Positions 8,980-63,351 of a stretch of 64,000 nt of DNA are shown in pieces. The notes beneath the pieces are model-generated. The model made no database searches. It saw only the letters and a list, made by a program, of their open reading frames with translations, and had not been told where the DNA came from. Location of the stretch: positions 3,844,001-3,908,000 of the forward strand of contig OZ038526.1 in NCBI GenBank assembly GCA_964036665.1, in the 5' to 3' direction. The first letter of the stretch is position 1. Each line of letters begins with the position of its first letter. The DNA comes from Gordius sp. MW1 (Eukaryota > Nematomorpha > Gordioida > Gordea > Gordiidae). Both the position numbers and the translations under genes were made by a program.

Positions 8980-10380
8980 ATGGCGACCCGTCGCGCTTTC
9001 ACAAAAATAGCTATAAAAGATTAGAAGAAGCCCTTGAATCGATAATGTCCGGTGATAACAAAGATATCGAATACGATACAGTAATAGTGCCACCAAACCC
9101 TGATGTTCTGAGTGACGAAGAAGAAGGGAATGATGATGATTTGATATCCTCGAATTTTCCAAAAGATATTCCTGGTACAATTGAAGTAAATCCACGTCAT
9201 CCCGACCATGATGTTTCTGACTGGGACTACAGTGATGAAGAATCACTTTCTAATCACATAAGACTATCAAAAAGAGCTAAAAGTCAAGACACACCTGGGT
9301 GGAAAAAAACTTCACCTACATTCAGCATAACCCATACTGTTACCGAAGCCACTCAAAGCAGACAAAAAAATATTGTAGAATCAATGATTGATCACAATCC
9401 TACAATGTTGTTTGAAAAATTCTTTAATAAAGATGTTATGGACTTGATAGCAGAAAATAGTGTTTTGTACGCAAGATAAAATAATCGCCATAATTTTGAA
9501 TTGAATCGTAAAGACTTAAAAAGTTTTTTGGGAATATTGATGCTAACTGGATATCATGAAGATGCCGATTGTCCCAAGTGAGCATATAGTGTATTTCGAT
9601 AACTTTTTTACGAACTATCAGTTATTGCATGATTTGAGACTTTTGGGTTACAGGGCCACAGGCACAATGCGGGGAAATAGAACGAAGAAATGTCCACTCA
9701 GCACTGTAAAAATGATGAAAAAGCGACCCAGAGCAGAATATGATTACTGATTTGTTTTGAAAAATGAAATATCAATTGTACGCTGGAAAGACAACAATGT
9801 AGTCACTATAGGAACCAACTATGACACTATAGAGCCTCTAGGAAAAGTAAACAGATGGTGCAAGCTTCAAAAGCAAAAGGTGGAATTTGATGTCCCAAGA
9901 CTAATAATAAACTACAACAAAGGAATGGGTGGCGTCGATCAAATGGACCAGTCTATTAGTATTTACAGAGTGCCTATAAAAGGAAAAAAATGGTGGTGGG
10001 TAATATTTACCTACATCCTAGATATGGCCATATCTAACGCTTGGAGACTGCATGTTTTACTCAGCAAGACTGGACAGGTGACATACATGGATCAATTAGT
10101 ATTCAGACGGACGATTGCTCGAGGATACATACAACGGAAAAAACTAAAAGTCGTCCACAGTCAACAATACTTGGACTGGAGCGGAAAACTGTCACAACCC
10201 CGAGCGCATCGTAAAACCATTGCGTTGCGTCATTTGCCACAATCGAGGTCGCTGGCGTTGCGTGCTTTGCGAGAAAACGTTGTGTGTAGAGCGAACTTGC
10301 TTTGGACAATATCACTCCTAATCCGCCCATTGTACACACCCGTGTACACCCCATTATTTTCATTGTTTCATGTTTTTTAA
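8980..10380 (+). pseudogene. piggyBac transposase (PGBD-like), internally deleted and frameshifted
   Basis: The N-terminal acidic region is like PGBD2/PGBD3 proteins: RLEEALESIMSGDNKDIEY, then PPNPDVLSDEEEG. The core begins with NRKDLKSFLGILMLTGYHE. Sequence then jumps to VPSEHIVYFDNFFTNYQLL, which carries the second catalytic Asp, and GGVDQMDQSISIYRVP, which carries a later catalytic Asp. The stretch with the first catalytic Asp is missing, so there is an internal deletion near 9560. Stops occur at 9477-9479 and 9748-9750, and an ATG at 8980 needs a frameshift to join the acidic frame. The C-terminal cysteine-rich domain is degenerate. This copy cannot be active. Confidence 0.88.
10332..10347. 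repeat. Subterminal palindrome, right side of piggyBac
   Basis: GTACACACCCGTGTAC, about 117 bp inside the right end, mirroring the 8434 copy at the left end. Confidence 0.6.
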
Positions 10381-16420: not shown

Positions 16421-27274
<10,854 letters not shown>

Positions 27275-33094: not shown

Positions 33095-34542
33095 CTAGCT
33101 GTGCCCGGCCAAGCGTTGCTTTGGCTCAGTCCTTAAGTGGTTAATTAAGTATAAGCTATTAATAAGACTTATCTAAAATGGGGTCATATATGAAATAATT
33201 TATAATGTGAAAGGTCCGAATGATTTTATGAACCCACTATTTTTAGTATATATTTATATAATAAGACAAACCAAATGCAAATTCTGTTTTAATCATCAAA
33301 TCCGACTAAAATTAAATGTTTTTGAAAAAATTGCTTATTAATGCTGTTATTTATTATACAATAATACCATTATTTTATTTTTCTAGTTAGCTGATTTATT
33401 TGAAATACAATTTTCTTTAATATAATAAAATAATTAATTGAAGGATGGATAATTATTAAAAATATGCTTCTATGATCGACCACGTGATAATAATGACAAA
33501 AACTGCATAATTTAAATTTTATTTAATTAATTTAAATAGTCTGTTAATGTCAGATATTTTTAAAACAAAAAGGTATTTTAGGAATCTGAAAAAGCTATTT
33601 TACCCCTGGCCTATCTGGGCATCTACGGCTAAATCTTCGCTCGAATCGGATCTGAAGTTTCAGAATTTAGCCCTTTTTTAAAACCAAAAGGCCGAGAAAT
33701 GTCCGATATTTTTAAAACTAAAAGGAATTTTAGCAATCTGAAAAAGCTATTTTACACCTGGCCGCCCTGAGAACCTACGGGTAAAGTTTCGCGCAAATCG
33801 GGCCGGTAGTTTCAGAATTTATTCTCATTTAAATATCTCATTTAATAAAAATTAATGATAGATAAATAATGACATTTATATATAAATAGCATTTACTCAG
33901 AATAATCAACGTTCGACTATATTACATTTAAATTATATGTACCTTCATCTTTCTCATTTAAAATATCTCATTTAATGATAATGAGAAAAATTCATCTTCT
34001 TCACCTATATATTTTCTCAAATAATCTATAATTTTATTTATTTCAGGTTAATTCATAAATTTTATGTTGTCACCGTTAAGAAAAGATGACGTTTAAGAAA
34101 TTTAATTCATAAATTTTATGTTGTCTTGTCACCGTTAAGAAAAGATGACGTTTAAGAAATTTAATTCATAAATTTTATATTGTCACCGTTAAGAAAAGAT
34201 GACGTTTAAGAAATTTAATTCATAAATTTTATGTTGTCACCGTTAAGAAAAGATTACGTTTTACTACAAACTACTATAAGTGATACACTTTTACTACAGA
34301 ATTGTCTGTATATTCAAATTTTCGACGAACGCGAGGAGGTGCGTTTGATTGACAGTTTATTGAACGTCAAAACGCATAAAACCCAATATCTCGAAAATTA
34401 AAAGGAATTTTAGGAATCGGCAAAGGCTATTTTACCCCTGGCCGCCCTGGGAACCTATGGGTAAATTTTCGCGCGAATCGGACCGGTAGTTTCAGAGATT
34501 AGCCCTTACATACATACATACACTTTACTTTATATATATAGA
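33095..34542 (-). mobile_element. Non-autonomous Helitron-like element downstream of Pdf
   Basis: It has the same ends as 25245-26823: A|TCTATATATATAAAG at the minus-strand start and the GCCAA/TTGGC hairpin plus CTAG|T at its end. It differs mainly by a ~110-bp internal deletion near 33540. Its right edge is 399 bp below the Pdf stop codon. Confidence 0.72.
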
Positions 34543-34941
34543 TAAGACTAATAATGTAATTATTTTAACTGAAATACTAGATTTTACATTTTATTACAAC
34601 GATAATACATATGAATAGGTAATATTGATACACCTAATAGATATAATATATAAACGATGTCTAATATGCATAATAAAATCTAAAAAAATTCAATATGACA
34701 ATGATGTTATTCACATGATGATGGCTTCATAAATTATATACGTGTTTCATTTTTTGTCCTGCATATAACAATAAAGTATATGAATATAATTAACAGTAAA
34801 ATACAAAAACTTTAAAATTAAATAAATCAAAATTGAATACATTTAGACATATTGAAATTTTGTTTATTAAGCATTATATTTCTCTTTAAATAAATTTTGT
34901 ATGGTATAATGTTTATCTACTTACTCTCTTTTTCTAAAGAT

Positions 34942-35076
34942 TTATTTTCTCTTGCCAGCTCGCTCCAAATTAGGCATCCCTAGTAACGCATTTACTAATT
35001 CTGAATTCCTCTTGTGCATCCCATTATCGTTTCCAGCCAGCAACCCGAGGATTTTTAAAGCGTGGAAGGCTATCCG
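34942..35076 (-). CDS. Pdf: Pdf exon 2: mature peptide
   Basis: 135 nt including TAA at 34944-34942. The acceptor is TGTACCTATAG|CGG. It encodes RIAFHALKILGLLAGNDNGM, HKR, the PDF-like peptide, and GKRK. An AATAAA overlaps the stop codon. The only in-frame upstream stop lies inside the acceptor, so the exon boundary is well fixed. Confidence 0.85.
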   Translation of the reverse strand, partial: RIAFHALKILGLLAGNDNGMHKRNSELVNALLGMPNLERAGKRK

Positions 35077-38000
35077 CTATAGGTACAATTTGCAAATAAT
35101 GGCTTACAAAAAATAATGGCCTGGTTTGAAGCATTAATATTTATGTAATATATTGTATAAGAACACTAATTTAATTATATAAATCACTAGCTGACCCGGC
35201 AAACGTTGTTTTGCCATTTACCCGGGTGTATTCGCAGAATATATATCAACTTATAGATAAATTTTAATAGATTAAGAATATATCAAATATAATTGGTAAG
35301 TGTTTATTATGCAAAGATTTTTAAACAAATAGTTAAAGAGTGTCCAAGGCCCAGGCCCACCCAAGAAAAAAAACCTGGTCCCATGCCCCCCCCCCAAGAG
35401 AAAAATCTTTGGCCCCCTAGCCCTTCAAGCAATTTTTTTTAATTTTTTGTAATTAAAAAACAATATCATAATTAAATTATTTGTTTCTGAATATAACTTT
35501 TAATTCTGAACTTAATAATGTCCGAAGAACTGAGATATATCAACATTTATTGGCACTTTGTTAATAGTATTTTCATTTTTCTCCTTATTTAACGCGCAAA
35601 AAATGATAAAATAAGATTTTTTAATTTATTTAGCCACACAGGCGGGGACACGACCGTCCTATAATAATAATAATCGACGTGAAAAATAAACCTTAATTTT
35701 AAATATTTTTTAAAGGGCATGGGCAAAGGGGGCCTCAATTTATAAAAAGATTTTAAAAGAGTGTTGCAAAATAGTGGATCAGTTATAAATTTTCATGCTC
35801 GTTAATCAAATAAAAATATAGCGGCTGCCTTTATAATAAAATATAAACAAAAAGCGGATACGGATACGCATATAGTTTATTTAACGAAAAATAACAAATA
35901 ATTGATATTTTTAAGATAATGTGTGGCGTTGTGCAAAATTCTGCACCTTTGCCCCCTCCCCAAGCAAATTTAAGCAAATTTTTTAAGTCAAAATAACCAA
36001 AAATTAATCATTAAATTTTGGATACATTTTTTAAAGCTATCGCTAGAGACCTACAAAATGGTATTTTTTGAAATCATAGTCTGGCCCAAGCCCCCCCCCC
36101 CAAGGGAAAAATCTTTGGCCCCCTGGCCCTTCAAGAAATTTTTTGTAATTAAGAAACAATATCATAATTATAATTATTTGTTTCTGAATAAAACTTTTAA
36201 TTCTGAACTTAATAGTGTCCGAAGAACTGAGATACATCAACATTTATTGGCACTCTGTTAAAAGTATTTTAATTTTTCTCTTTATTTAACGCGCAAAAAA
36301 TGACAAAATTAGATTTTTTAATTTATTTAGCCACGCAGGAGGGGACACGCCGTCCTATAATAATAATAATTGACGTGAAAAATAAGCAAAAAAATGACTT
36401 TGATACTCAATGTTTCAAATCGTAAAAACAGCACATGCCTACATTTATCACTCTACAAACGATTCGATTAAACGTCAAAACGTATAAAACTTGACCCCTC
36501 GAAAACTACTGGACTGATTTGGCTGGAACAAATCTTAAAACACGCTCCGGAGTGTCAGGAATGTGAAATTTTGAGCCAAATCGGTCTGGTAGTTTTCCAA
36601 AATTGGTGGCGGCATACACACATATATACACACATAGTTTCATTTTTATATATTAGATTTAGGTAAATAAATTGAACACCTTAAAAAAATTATAATATCC
36701 TAAATTAAGTCTTATTATTTCCATCTTTCTTCGAAATGAGTTAAATAAGGCATACGAAATGGTATAGTCATTGATACCTTATACTATTACTAAATCAATC
36801 TTAACGTGGGCGTTATTATTAAGAAATACAGAACTCATGAATATCACTCATTAATATTTAAAGGACTTGATGTATTCCTATCAACAAATCGTATAATTTC
36901 TTGATTTATGAAATTGAAGAAGATTTTTATTAATTAATTATATTATTAAGCTCACCTACACTATGGTAAACTTCACTTATATAAACGACCGTAGGTATGA
37001 AAAATATTTTTAAACAAATACAAGGCACATGATGATGCCATTTCAATGGCATTACATTTAAAATTATCATCTAATAAACTTGTGCCCTTTTTTACTAAAT
37101 TTAAATATTAAATTACCGAGATTCATGCTGACTTAGTTTATTTATCTTATAATTAACTAAATAATTTCTCACTTTGATCAATGATTTTAAATAAATATAG
37201 TAAAATTGTTATTATTGAATTTATGAGAAATTACAGTTATTTGGTTTAAAACGTTAGCGCTTAAACGGTTTAAGTAATAGATTTGTCGTTAAGATTATAT
37301 TTTAAAAATTATTATTAAAACGATTCCCAATATTCACATTTATTTCGCCTAGGAAATTGAGTTTAAAAGAGAAAAACAAAAACTAGACAATTACCTATGA
37401 TATTCACCTTTATTCATGACTTTTCAATTTATAGAGAGGATCTGTATTAATAAACAACTACTAAAATAATGTAACCAATTACACTTACGGTTCCCCTGCA
37501 AATAAATTAACTAATTACAATTCCTTTTTTTAAAAGAAAAGGAACTAGTTCCAGGAACTAATTACATGTAACTAGCTAATTAACAGCTCTAGTTATGACT
37601 AATTTTGAGCTTAATTATAAGCTTCATATTCACTTATCATCAATTATTAATCAGCTTCTTCATGGGCGTAGCCAGCATTGGAATTAGAGGGGGGGGCAAT
37701 AATGATTAAGGGAGGGACAAAATAATCATTTTTTAAATTTTAGCCATAATTTTAATAAATTTCTGGATTTAGAGGGGGGCAGCCGCCCTCCCTGTCCTCC
37801 CTTGACTAGGCCCACGAGCTTCTTTGAAATAAATCTAGCTTTGATAAAATTCTATTAAAATTAACTTAAACTAAAATCATTCCATCTTATTTTCATCTAA
37901 CAACAGCTGGACATCAACCCTTAAATATTGTATTATAATATAATCAAATCTCGTTTATTTCCCAGAGGCGTATATTGTACGGTCTAATCCAAGTTAATTC

Positions 38001-38843
38001 AACTGTGAGGTTATGTATGTAAATGTATGGAACAGTGGTAGGTTTCAGTACGAATCTAAATTATTAAATTGTTGCCAAGCGCTAAAGTGTTCTTTAAATG
38101 TCTATATATAGCTTAACAGAGATTTGTAAAACTTGAAATTTTACTAATATTGTGATTTTAATGTTCCCAATGCTTATTTATATTAAATGTTATATTATAG
38201 AATATGAAATGTTCGCCTTAAACTTTTAAAACTTTATTGCCGAAAGTTAACATAAAGCAATAAATCATGTCCCAGGCAATCGGTTTCACAACAATTTAAT
38301 TAAGATTAGACAAACTCATTTTAAAATTATTAGTAAAGGGAATTAAATTGGACGCATCACAAGTGGAGGGCCAAATTGCGATCAGGGGTAATAAAAAAAA
38401 TGAGTTATTAAAAGTCAATATATAGAATCACTTTATTATATAGGTTAGAACAGGATTTTGTATATAGAAGATTAGTTTTCACGTCACGTATTGGTCTAGT
38501 CGAGAGGCTGTATTTTTATTTATTGAATTAGACAACATAATTGTTGCTGAAAGTATCAAAGCTGACAACACATAGGCTCAGAGCAGGCTCAAGTAATGCT
38601 TGTTTAAAAAAAAGATTAATTTTTAATTTAAAAATTAAAGAGGCTAAAAACTTATGAGTGGGAAGGTGATGGTGTTGAAATTTATTTTATTTATAAGATT
38701 AAGTGAGGTTAGAAAATTACTTCTCTTGTGACGGAATTCAACGTTTTATCCATTGGTACATCATCTGAATAAAGAGGTTGAAGCAAAGCTTGGGATACGA
38801 GACAAAAAAGTAATCCTAAACAAATGTATTTGGTAGCGGCCAT
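34942..38843 (-). CDS. Pdf: Pigment-dispersing factor (PDF) neuropeptide precursor
   Basis: PDF is the main secreted output peptide of insect clock neurons and acts through a class-B GPCR. Two exons, 38721-38843 and 34942-35076, join in phase 0 to give an 85-residue prepropeptide. Residues 1-19 form a signal peptide (MAATKYICLGLLFCLVSQA). A short acidic/amphipathic propeptide follows, then KR at 63-64, then NSELVNALLGMPNLERA (65-81), G82 as amide donor, KRK and stop. Arthropod PDF/PDH peptides are usually 18 residues starting NSE(L/I)(I/L)NS(L/I)LG(L/I)P. This one keeps NSEL.N.LLG.P but is 17 long with a changed C-terminal half. A single peptide at the extreme C-terminus after KR is the family layout. 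Organism-level expression is unknown. Confidence 0.85.
35187..36657 (-). mobile_element. Helitron-like element in the Pdf intron
   Basis: The minus strand starts A|TCTAATATATAAAA and ends with hairpin GGCAAA-(ACAACG)-TTTGCC, then GGGTCAG and CTAG|T. It belongs to a related but distinct family from the 25.2- and 33.1-kb copies. It contains a ~300-bp direct repeat (about 35370-35685 and 36090-36385). Its left edge is 110 bp from the Pdf exon 2 acceptor. No helicase frame was recognised. Confidence 0.7.
36658..38720. other. Pdf: Remainder of the Pdf intron
   Basis: AT-rich sequence with one MITE (37663-37815). No additional exon or cryptic peptide was recognised. Confidence 0.5.
37663..37815. 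mobile_element. GGGCGTAGCC MITE in the Pdf intron, with 8-bp target-site duplication
   Basis: Runs from CATGGGCGTAGCCAGC to TTGACTAGGCCCACG, flanked on both sides by AGCTTCTT. The 8-bp duplication supports the hAT assignment of this MITE family. Confidence 0.78.
38721..38843 (-). CDS. Pdf: Pdf exon 1: signal peptide and start of propeptide
   Basis: 123 nt, 41 codons. The ATG at 38843-38841 is chosen because it starts a typical signal sequence and lies about 80 nt below a canonical TATA box. A longer open frame upstream would place the TATA box inside the coding region. The exon ends at AGAGAA|GTAATT in phase 0, after NSVTRE. Confidence 0.8.
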
Positions 38844-38914: not shown

Positions 38915-38926
38915 CCTTTATATAGG
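38915..38926 (-). promoter_or_regulatory. Pdf: TATA box of Pdf
   Basis: The minus strand reads CCTATATAAAGG. This predicts a transcription start near 38888 and a 5' leader of roughly 45 nt before ATG 38843, which supports the chosen start codon. Confidence 0.65.
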
Positions 38927-46597: not shown

Positions 46598-48010
46598 CTC
46601 GGGCCTTTGGCCCTCGTGGGAAGGGGGAAGGGGAGGAGGGGAAGGGGAGGGAAGAGGGGAAGGGAAGGGGGGAGGGAGGTGCAGGAGGGAAGGGGGAACG
46701 AAACTCATCTATATCCGTATAAACGTAGCATATTTGCTATGCAATTTATGGGCGAGAAAGGTGGGAAGGGGAGAGAATGCTTATAGAGGGGTATAAAATG
46801 CAAAATGATTAATTATTTATACAAATTTTTAAAAAGTTAAATTTTTGTAAAACCTGCTATTATTGAGGAATAGGTTTTCTTTCATTCATTCTTATTTATC
46901 AACTTCTAAATTAATCAAAATGACGAAAGGAACGCAAATAGAGGGTATGACTTTGGAAAAGCCAATAGTCATCCTACCAAAATGTACAACTCTCAATTTA
47001 GAGTTTTTTTTGTATAAATTTAAACAATTTGGTGTAGGCGACCCATAATTTGAATTATGATTATAGACTCTATTTAAATCATGCGCATATGTATAGTACA
47101 AGCAAGATATTAAAAAAACGAAAAAAAATTCCAATCAGACCTTGGCCATTGGTCATTTTCATCACTTTGGCCAGTGGTAATTTTTTTTAATGGTTAGCAG
47201 ACAGCCAAATAACTAGTCTATAATTATAATCTAAAAAAATTGATTTCAATCTCACTTTGGCCAGTGTTCATTTTTTCCATTGGTCAGTAACCAGCAGACT
47301 GCCAAATACTGGCCAATAATTATAAGTTAGAGAAAAAATTTAATCTTAATCTCACTTTGGCCAGTGGTCATTTTTTTTATTGGTCAGTAGCCAGGACACG
47401 GCCAAATAGCCTATATTTAAAAATATAGAAAAAAAAATTTGCTACACTTTGGCCAATGGTCTTTTTTTTATTGGTCAGTAGCCAGGACACGGTCAAAAAG
47501 GATATAATTACATAGGAGACGAAAAAAACGAAAAAAAAATTTTGATGTACTTTGGCCAATGGTCATTTTTTTCGTTGGTCAGTAGCCAGGACACGGTCAA
47601 AAAGTCATATTATCAATGGTATTAACAAGAACAATATATTAATTTAAAAAAAACATTTGCCCTCTCAGGGATTCGAACCAGCAATTAAGAATTTGCCCTC
47701 GCCGGGATTCGAACCCACATCAGTAGAGGCATAGGCTTTGGCACAGGGACCCATATCAGTAGAGGCTTAGGCCCTTGTGGGGGGGGGGAATAGGGTAATT
47801 ATCAATGTTAACCTAATATACCAATTCAAAAAACGCAAAAAAAATTTCAATTCACAATTTGGCCAATGGTCATTTTTTTCATTGGTCAGTAGCCAGGACA
47901 CGGTCAAAAAGTCATATTATCACTGGTATTAAGAAGAACAATATATTTTTTTTATTTAAAAAAATTTTTGTCCTCTCCGGGTATCGAATCGGCAATTAAG
48001 ATATACATCA
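46598..48010 (+). mobile_element. Composite repeat element, copy 1 (GC hairpin, G-rich tract, VNTR, tRNA-like)
   Basis: Starts CTCGGGCCTTTGGCCCTCG, followed by a G/A-rich tract, then TTTGCTATGCAATTTATGGG near 46731. A VNTR (47141-47610, again at 47853-47925) follows, with tRNA-like B boxes GGGATTCGAACC at 47668 and 47714. It abuts the end of duplicated repeat copy 1. Its 3' boundary is uncertain. Confidence 0.55.
47141..47610. repeat. VNTR array, ~110-bp units
   Basis: About five units of TTTGGCCAATGGTCATTTTT, TTGGTCAGTAGCCAG.ACACGG and a variable A-rich spacer. The same unit occurs at 60152-61060 and 62276-63285. Confidence 0.8.
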
Positions 48011-60151: not shown

Positions 60152-61060
60152 TTGGCCAATGGTCACTTTTTCTCTATTGGTCAGTACCAACAGATACTCT
60201 ATAAGTCAATGATAGCCAAAAAAACGGAAAAAAAAATTTTGATGCTCACTTTGGCCAATGGTCATTTTTTTCCATTGGTCAGCAGCCAGCACACGGTAAA
60301 AGTGGATATAAATTCATAAGAGTAAAAAAAACGAAAAAAAATTTTCGAATCACATTTTGGCCAATGGTCATTTTTTTCCATTGGTCAGCAGCCAGGACAC
60401 GGTAAAAGTGGATATAAATTCCTAATAGTCAAAAACGAAAAAAAAATTTTCGAATCACATTTTGGCCAATGGTCATTTTATTCCATTGGTCAGCAGCCAG
60501 CGGACGGCCAAAAAGTCATAATAGCAATGGTAGGAACAGGAACAATCATAATAGTCAAAAAAAACGAAAAAAATAATTTCGATTCACATTTTGGCCAATG
60601 GTAATTTTTTCCATCGGTCAGGAGCCAGCGGACGGCCAAAAAGTCATAATAGCAATGGTAGTAACAGGAACAATCATAATAGTCAAAAAAGAACGAAAAA
60701 ATAAACTCGGATTCACATTTTGGCCAATGGTCATTTTTTTCATTGGTCAGCAGCCAACGGACGGCCAAAAAGTCTTATAATCAATGATAGTAACAAGAAC
60801 AATCATAGGAGTCAAAAAAACTCCGGGATTCTAACCCAAAAACTAGTTAAATTGCATAGCAATTAAAAGTAAACAACTTTTATTTATGTTTATTATATAA
60901 CATTGGTCAGCAGCCAGCGGACGGCCAAAAAGTCATAATAGCAATGGTAGAAACAGGAACAATCATAATAGTCAAAAAAAAACGAAAAAAATAATTTCGA
61001 TTCACATTTTGGCCAATTGTCATTTTTTTCATTGGTCAGCAGCCAGCGGACGGCCAAAAA
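60152..61060. repeat. VNTR array, ~120-bp units
   Basis: About seven units built on TTTGGCCAATGGTCATTTTT, ATTGGTCAGCAGCCAGCGGA, CGGCCAAAAAGTCATAATAG and an A-rich spacer. Each unit holds nested inverted repeats (CCAATG...CATTGG, TTGGCC...GGCCAA). Confidence 0.85.
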
Positions 61061-61320
61061 TTCTTATTATCAATGATAGTAACAAGAACAATCATAAGAG
61101 TCAAAAAAAACTCCGGGATTCTAACCCCAAAACTAGTTAAATTGCATAGCAATTAAAAAGTAAACAACTTTTATTTATGTTTATTATATAACTAGTTAAA
61201 TTGCATAGCATTAAAAGTAAACAACTTTTATCTATGTTTATTATATAACAAAAACTAGTTAATTGCATAGCAATTAAAAGTAAACAACTTTTATTTATGT
61301 TTATTATATAATAAAAATTT
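60838..61320. repeat. Tandem 62-bp repeat, about four units
   Basis: The unit contains AACTAGTTAAATTGCATAGC, then AAAGTAAACAACTTTTATTT, then ATGTTTATTATATAAC. One unit (60838-60902) is separated from the other three (61128-61310) by VNTR sequence. Confidence 0.8.
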
Positions 61321-61801
61321 AACAAATCTTATATATAACACACCGAGAGAGATAGAGATGAGGGGTGGGGCACCTCTTATGCATTAATTCAAAAAATAAC
61401 ACAGCGAGGGAGATAGAGATGAGGGGTGGGGCACCTCTTTCTCATCCATTAATTTAAAAAAGCGATAACCTAATATACCCAATGCAAATAGATAGGGAGG
61501 GTAACGGACGGACAGACAGACAACGGACAACGGACAACTAAAAACGAGCCCATAAATTGCATAGCAATTAATAATGGTTTGTGTTTTAAGTTATTACTTA
61601 TGCATATTTAGATAAAACATATCCATATCCACACCTAATTAAGCATTGACTATCAAAATATATATTATTTGTGGTAATCTGTCCTCTCCTATATATTATA
61701 ATTTTATTCCATTGATCAATAATCTCTAGATGATACCCTGTATTTGTTCAAAGATGTAGATGAAAACGACTCACCTATATATAAACAATAATGTAGTTTT
61801 C

Positions 61802-61850
61802 AGTGGCGTAGCCAAGGCCCCCCACCCTAGCAAAAATTCCAAAAATAGTG
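61802..61850. mobile_element. Truncated GGGCGTAGCC-family MITE
   Basis: AGTGGCGTAGCCAAGGCCCC matches the left end of the MITE family. The rest is missing or diverged. Confidence 0.35.
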
Positions 61851-62275
61851 ATATAAATAAAATATTAAAACTCGGGCCTTCGGCCCTCGTGGGAAGGGGG
61901 AGGGGAGAAGGGGAGGGGAGAAGGGAAGGGGGGACGACTCATCTTTACTTCGTATAAATGTATCATATTTGCTATGCAATTTATGGGCGAGAAAGGTGGG
62001 AAGGGGCGAGAATGCCTATAGGGGGGTATTAAATGCCTAATGATTAATTAATTATTTATACAAATTTTCCATTTATAGGCAAAATGTAATATAGGCAAGG
62101 GTTAGGGTTAGATTTAGTGTTTGCATCTAGTTGCGTATTACATTAGTTTTTACGGCCTTTAGTGATTATGGGTCTAACAAACATTATATTATAAAACATC
62201 ACAATGTTAAGAATTTGCAGAATTGTTGGGAGAAATTTTTGTTGAATTTGAACAATTTTTAATTAAAAAAAACAA

Positions 62276-63285
62276 AAATTTGGCGAATGGTCATTTTTTC
62301 TCAATTGGTCAGTACCAACAGATACTCTATAAGTCAATGATAGCCAAAAAAACGGAAAAAAAATTTGATGCTCACTTTGGCCAATGGTCATTTTTTTCCA
62401 TCGGTCAGCAGCCAGCACACGGTAAAAATGGATATCAATTCATAAGAGTAAAAAAAACGAAAAAAAAATTTTCGAATCACATTTTGGCCAATGGTCATTT
62501 TATTCCATTGGTCAGCAGCCAGGACACGGTAAAAGTGGATATAAATTCATAATAGTCAAAAAAAACGAGGAAAACATTTTCGAATCACATTTTGGCCAAT
62601 GGTCATTTTATTCCATTGGTCAGCAGCCAGCGGACGGCCAAAAAGTCATAATAGCAATGGTAGGAACAGGAACAATCATAATAGTAAAACAAAAACAAGA
62701 AAAATAATTTCGATTCACATTTTGGCCAATGGTCATTTTTTCCATCGGTCAGGAGCCAGCGGACGGCCAAAAAGTAATAATAGCAATGGTAGTAACAGGA
62801 ATAATCATAATAGTCAAAAATAAACGAAAAAATAAACTCGGATTCACATTTTGGCCAATGGTCATTTTTTTCATTGGTCAGCAGCCAGCGGACGGCCAAA
62901 AAGTCTTATTATCAATGATAGTAACAAGAACAATCGTAATAGTCAAAACTAAAACGAAAAAAAAACTTGGAATCACATTTTGGCCAATGGTCATTTTTTC
63001 CATCGGTCAGCAGCCAGCGGACGGCCAAAAAGTCATAATAGCAATGGTAGTAACAGGAACAATCATAATACTCAAAAAAAAACGAAAAAATAAACTTGGA
63101 TTCACATTTTGGCCAATGGTCATTTTTTTCATTGGTCAGCAGCCAGTAGACGGCCAAAAATTCATAATAGCAATGGTAGTAACAGGAACAATCATAATAG
63201 TCAAAAAAAACGAAAAAATAAACTTGGATTCACATTTTGGCCAATGGTCATTTTTTCCATTGGTCAGTAGCCTGCGGACGGTCAA
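62276..63285. repeat. VNTR array, ~120-126-bp units
   Basis: About eight to nine units of the same consensus as 60152-61060. Because the unit is close to a multiple of three, long open frames (for example 62729-63310 on the plus strand) arise with a repeated IGQQPADGQKVIIAMVVTGT motif. These are probably by-products of the repeat. Confidence 0.85.
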
Positions 63286-63351
63286 AAAGTCGAATTATCA
63301 ATGGTATTAACAAGAACAAAATTTTAATTTAATTTAAAAAAAAAATAAAAA

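Follow-up and report, generated by a model that had tools for sequence, protein, structure and literature searches.

A probable pigment-dispersing factor gene in the genome of a horsehair worm

The stretch of DNA analysed here (the window, 64,000 nucleotides) corresponds to positions 3,844,001-3,908,000 of contig C8 in an assembly of 211.8 Mb and 12 contigs. Its minus strand carries what is, with a probability of about 0.85 as judged from sequence, the pigment-dispersing factor (PDF) gene of a gordioid-type horsehair worm. It consists of two coding segments, 38843..38721 and 35076..34942, whose phase-0 junction would give an 85-residue precursor, in which a signal-like N-terminus is followed by KR, the peptide NSELVNALLGMPNLERA, G, KRK, and the stop codon. 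This identification draws on the open exons and their processing sites, on the locus being the only one to answer three different queries and one of seven pattern matches to read on as a PDF, on shuffle comparisons, and on the signal-like exon upstream. It draws also on the nematomorph identity of the animal and on the convertase, monooxygenase, and receptor domain matches in its genome. Among PDFs it is probably an unexceptional case, a further member of a known family in a poorly studied phylum.

The locus and its precursor

The initial annotation had proposed a PDF-type gene on two exons with a conserved N-terminal half, a proposal that is very probably right. Its two exons, with GT-AG boundaries and phase 0, were found again, and its order of signal peptide, KR, peptide, G, KRK, and stop was borne out by translation, the signal peptide by hydropathy. 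Exon 1 contributes 41 codons and has GTAATT directly 3', while exon 2 contributes 44 codons and a TAA and has CCTATAG directly 5'; the proposed intron is in phase 0 at both ends. Exon 2 requires an upstream exon, because the TAG of the acceptor itself stops the frame immediately 5' of it. In the 15 kb upstream on the minus strand, three of the 239 ATGs passed a filter that asked for a hydrophobic stretch and a phase-0 GT donor agreeing with the consensus in at least six of nine places. The ATG at 38843 had the highest hydrophobicity of these three; the other two, at 37070 and 37052, are nested and belong to one other open reading frame (ORF). The TATA-like element TATATAAAG starts 81 bases 5' of the exon 1 ATG. 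The 85-residue model thus shows the layout of the family, a short secreted precursor (the signal again by hydropathy) with a dibasic site and one PDF, and the C-terminal glycine and dibasic site are present as G-KRK-stop, from which an amide is predicted; the amidated 17-mer has a calculated [M+H]+ of 1839.975.

Six-frame searches of the whole genome returned the window locus alone with its own 21-residue peptide (E 4.8e-7, a self-match), with an arthropod-type PDF query that included the cleavage sites (E 0.0167, 74% identity), and with velvet-worm PDF-II. The degenerate pattern K-[RS]-N-x-E-x-x-N (24 bases) occurs at seven places in the genome, two forward and five reverse, and its reversed control at two. 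On translation, one of the seven, the window locus, runs on as a PDF with GKR, and the other six are not PDF. No second PDF-like exon was found by the arthropod, PDF-II, or PDF-1b queries or by the pattern, short queries reaching little; within that reach, a separate canonical pdf gene elsewhere, which the initial annotation had set against its own proposal, was sought genome-wide and not found. A pdf-II gene cannot be called absent, because the nematode PDF-1b query had no positive control.

Within the pdf intron, a segment is duplicated about 700 bases apart (35375-35652 and 36081-36349) and comprises a 178-nt repeat at 94% and a 70-nt repeat at 89%, with two copies of each. Just 3' of the gene sits a tandem array (34048-34261) with a unit of 54-59 nt, and an array of nearly the same consensus lies 7.7 kb away at 26327-26551.

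Relation to known PDF peptides

The predicted 17-residue peptide was aligned with eight family peptides, whose sequences are those printed in parts of four papers (PMC3414713, PMC7235175, PMC4200219, PMC5996578), and each alignment was compared with 5,000 shuffles. Drosophila PDF shares 10 identities with it (z 7.3), velvet-worm PDF-I and PDF-II share 8 and 9, C. elegans PDF-1a and PDF-1b share 8 and 9, and scallop cerebrin shares 5. For each of these six peptides, none of the 5,000 shuffles was as good, so that the peptide is alignable with the family above the level of shuffled sequences.

Panarthropod PDF/PDH peptides, such as Drosophila NSELINSLLSLPKNMNDA-amide (PMC3414713) and velvet-worm PDF-I and PDF-II (PMC7235175), in the sequences given there, have in common with the present one the N-[SA]-E-L-[IV]-N-x-L-L start, the proline at position 12, and the final alanine before the amidation glycine and dibasic site. 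They differ in having 18 residues instead of 17 and in their K-x-x-N-D-A or Q-K-L-Q-E-A tails, where the hairworm peptide has N-L-E-R-A. The arthropod type, with 18 residues and an N-D-A-amide end, is thus not what is found here, since the peptide ends in E-R-A. Nematode PDF-1 peptides, for example C. elegans SNAELINGLLSMNLNKLSGA-amide, share the N-x-E-L-[IV]-N-x-L core and have M at the matching place; the nematode peptides as listed in PMC3414713 differ in having 20 residues, no proline, and another tail. The molluscan PDF/cerebrins of oyster, NLGTVDSLYNLPDLLYR-amide, and scallop, NAGTIDSLYNLPDLFAA-amide, likewise have 17 residues with P12 and L14, and both carry P-D-L at positions 12-14, according to the sequences in PMC4200219 and PMC5996578. 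Their N-terminal half, as given there, is of N-x-G-T-x-D type and without the E-L-[IV]-N core, with 5 identities each.

The tails were also scored by BLOSUM62, over six residues, which are too few to decide ancestry. Scallop, Drosophila, velvet-worm PDF-II, oyster, and velvet-worm PDF-I scored 12, 9, 9, 6, and 1 with the C-terminus as anchor, and 12, 0, 2, 6, and 5 with the proline as anchor. Residues 1-12 look ecdysozoan, and residues 12-17 match the two bivalve peptides in length and P-x-L spacing. The initial annotation had held that the C-terminal half had changed and had lost one residue. The change stands, in that the tail is not arthropod-like, and the loss is unproven, since the two bivalve PDF/cerebrins are 17-mers as well. 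For the same reason 17 residues could be the older length of PDF, and the difference may reflect residue loss in the hairworm PDF or residue gain in panarthropods.

Two other divergent types may be compared. The aphid PDF also has several exons and was initially missed, but it belongs to an insect, and its core of 11 residues is flanked by KKK and RR, without an amidation glycine in the description of PMC10299861; here KR, 17 residues, G, and KRK are found. The initial annotation had drawn a parallel with aphid genomes first reported as lacking pdf, which falls away, as the aphid gene is already in print and of another type (PMC10299861). Beetle PDFs, compared by description, likewise have a changed C-terminal half and length, being longer by two residues in Cucujiformia and shorter by two in the one adephagan (PMC6585902, in part). 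A divergent PDF of the beetle type was considered and was dropped along with an insect origin of the DNA.

The source animal, other genes, and features of the window

The source animal is a gordioid-type horsehair worm, because of its TTAGGG telomeres, the inverted repeats and gene order of its mitochondrial genome, and the best match of a nuclear gene, which is from Gordionus. TTAGGG arrays occur at six of the eight starts and seven of the eight ends of the eight large contigs; the telomere repeat of insects is usually TTAGG. In the terminal 60 bases at the C4 start, the C9 start, and the C8 end, GC-rich repeats of the GTCCGTTGTCC type replace TTAGGG. Contig C12 is mitochondrial (14,798 bases, about 66% A+T). 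Among 48 inverted-repeat pairs listed for it (all 23 pairs of one half and 25 out of the 47 pairs of the other half), 12 show perfect complementarity over 40 nt or more, reaching 108 nt, and several of these sit inside ORFs read as nad1, atp6, nad5, and nad2. The gene order, with names read by eye and rRNAs outside the check, is nad1(-), cox1, cox2, atp6, cox3, nad3, nad4l, nad4, nad5, nad2(-), nad6, cytb.

Long perfect inverted repeats in mitochondrial genes are called exclusive to Nematomorpha in a passage of PMC10380579, where the order found in C12 is given for Parachordodes pustulosus, two Gordionus species, and Gordius sp., and that of Chordodes sp. is one transposition away. Inverted repeats in mitochondrial genomes of about 15 kb are also described for four hairworm species in part of PMC6649704. 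Both the long perfect repeats and the gordioid order are thus present in C12. The hemipteran setting of the initial annotation is not supported, as the telomere repeat, the mitochondrial repeats, the gene order, and the best match of the nuclear gene are all nematomorph; a hemipteran or other insect origin was ruled out by the TTAGGG telomeres and the mitochondrial features. A lophotrochozoan origin, considered on the basis of TTAGGG, gave way to Nematomorpha.

The nuclear gene is a photolyase ORF, a single exon of 569 codons (C8:9808309-9808917 plus flanks), which is the sole FAD_binding_7 match found in the genome and has a DNA photolyase as its best solved structure. Its best database match, at 58% identity, is from Gordionus sp. 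m RMFG-2023, a divergence at which the animal is probably not that Gordionus itself. Of the best 120 among 8,000 scored sequences, the remaining 119 are 44-50% identical, and those with a named organism are bacterial; the photolyase is possibly a bacterial gene acquired by a hairworm ancestor.

The genome also offers candidates for the steps from precursor to action. Exon matches genome-wide include three to the convertase P domain, three to the copper monooxygenase C-terminal domain, 15 to 7tm_2, and seven to the hormone-receptor extracellular domain. The last two kinds lie within about 10 kb of each other at five places (C2:18.55, C2:24.31, C3:5.05, C6:2.17, and C8:3.02 Mb). Four of these receptor genes were tried against solved structures: those at C2:24.31 and C2:18.55 Mb were best matched by CRF receptors, and those at C3:5.05 and C8:3.017 Mb by the calcitonin receptor. 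The exon for transmembrane segments 6-7 at C2:24.31 Mb scored 50.8 bits against a CRF receptor (78-residue query) and 61-80 bits against six database fragments (74-residue query). Five of the six fragments have a 7tm_2 domain, and two carry an organism name, both crustaceans; none is named as a PDF receptor. The stretches F-A-x-W-S-Y and S-F-Q-G-F-F are common to exon and fragments and would make the exon PDF-receptor-like, and C2:24.31 Mb is the best PDF-receptor candidate. A brief look at clock genes gave one TIMELESS-domain match, the one photolyase, and two weak PAS_11 matches.

In the proposed course of events, the two exons would be spliced into one mRNA, whose 85-residue product would enter secretory granules by way of its signal peptide. 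Cleavage by a convertase would follow at KR and KRK, and the exposed glycine would be converted to a C-terminal amide. Like the PDFs of other moulting animals, the 17-residue amide may work through a class B1 receptor and may modulate locomotion and/or timing.

Elsewhere in the window, TTTGGCCAATGGTCATTTTTTCCATTGGTCAGCAGCC is part of the repeat unit (about 100-129 nt) of tandem arrays at 60218-63319 and 47196-47601, and it recurs in near-identical form within the initial 6 kb of contig C7. The plus-strand ORF 9751-10380 encodes a DDE_Tnp_1_7 transposase domain (E 9.3e-14) and is presumably piggyBac-like. Protein-kinase exons lie on the minus strand at 18356-20336; PF00069 is matched at 18356-18691 (E 3.5e-15), weakly and under the cut-off at 18708-19010, and not at 20016-20336. 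We take this kinase to be of the NDR/tricornered type.

Table 1. Features of the PDF-like gene and its surroundings (positions in the window)
Feature	Position	Strand	Description and basis
TATA-like element TATATAAAG	38916..38924	-	putative function; string search
Exon 1 coding part, MAATKYICLGLLFCLVSQALLQPLYSDDVPMDKTLNSVTRE	38721..38843	-	signal-like N-terminus, propeptide start; translation, candidate scan
Proposed intron, GT..AG	35077..38720	-	3,644 bases; splicing predicted
Exon 2 coding part, RIAFHALKILGLLAGNDNGMHKR, 17-residue PDF, G, KRK, stop	34942..35076	-	sequence, translation
Predicted mature peptide NSELVNALLGMPNLERA	34957..35007	-	amidation predicted
G as amide donor and KRK as cleavage site, ahead of stop	34945..34956	-	processing predicted
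Second AATAAA, overlapping stop codon	34946..34941	-	string search
AATAAA 3' of stop	34863..34868	-	string search

Alternative readings and significance

Several points weigh against the identification of a PDF gene. The match spans 17 residues, which is short; the velvet-worm PDF-II query found the window locus at an E of only 0.535, and a nematode PDF-1b query matched nowhere in the genome, missing the window locus too. The whole precursor, compared with 5.8 billion database sequences, returned three candidates, none at an E of up to 10, which says little because a 17-residue match could hardly reach E 10 among so many sequences. Two of the eight family peptides align more weakly: C. elegans PDF-2, with 7 identities, was matched by 9 of its 5,000 shuffles, and oyster cerebrin, with 5 identities, by 36 of 5,000. 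The exon 1 donor matches the consensus at only six of nine places, the exon 1 filter was ad hoc and crude, and the signal peptide was judged by hydropathy alone; the joining of exon 1 to exon 2 is therefore graded as likely and no firmer, on account of the crude filter and the donor. Finally, that the two shared receptor stretches form a PDF-receptor motif is our own assumption.

Hairworms live within arthropods, and the pdf gene might have reached the worm by horizontal transfer from an arthropod host and have diverged later. The N-terminal half is indeed closest to panarthropod peptides (10 identities between the 17-mer and Drosophila PDF), and the bacterial-type photolyase suggests that foreign genes enter the hairworm lineage. 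Such a transfer is nevertheless unlikely: the arthropod K-x-x-N-D-A tail is missing, scallop cerebrin matches the tail no less well than Drosophila PDF does (12 vs 9 when anchored at the C-terminus), and the gene has a large repeat-bearing intron. The residues of the peptide are too few for a tree. Somewhat less probable is that the described precursor is not made, either because the locus is a silent or decaying copy or because exon 2 is used with another first exon. One more upstream ORF (37070/37052) passes the exon 1 filter, but the frame is intact with KR, G, and KRK in place, and no other PDF-like exon was found genome-wide with the short queries to take over the function. A chance resemblance, with no PDF gene at all, is very improbable. 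It could appeal to the shortness of the match and to a genome-wide E of merely 0.0167 for the arthropod-type query; it is opposed by the shuffle comparison (0 of 5,000 for six of eight peptides), by the complete layout at one of seven pattern matches, and by a signal-like exon upstream in the correct phase. A further idea, to which we give hardly any weight, is that the worm's PDF amide is also released into the host and acts on the host PDF receptor, shifting the activity rhythm before the water drive. It is conceivable because the N-terminal half is arthropod-like, and the absent arthropod tail speaks against it.

For the horsehair worm PDF gene that we favour, the simplest history is that it derives from a PDF of early protostomes, because the P-N-L-E-R-A tail shares its length and P-x-L spacing with the two bivalve PDF/cerebrins. 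Genes pdf-I and pdf-II are described from priapulids, nematodes, and velvet worms, with pdf-II lost in tardigrades and arthropods (PMC11879619, PMC7235175, each in part). The word nematomorph does not occur in the tardigrade paper (PMC11879619). Hairworm genomes have been published, those of Gordionus, Chordodes, and Nectonema among them, and a section of PMC11408602 names the published ones. No report of a hairworm PDF was met in the literature, where Nematomorpha was paired only with the unhyphenated term 'pigment dispersing', so that an earlier report may exist; the one paper found to combine both with neuropeptides was a crab atlas.

If the gene is confirmed, a PDF of 17 residues, with an ecdysozoan N-terminal half and a mollusc-like spacing of the tail, would bear on the ancestral length of PDF and on what became of pdf-I and pdf-II in the lineage sister to nematodes. 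Nematomorpha are noted for steering the behaviour of their hosts, and the present locus provides a definite peptide to examine in this phylum.

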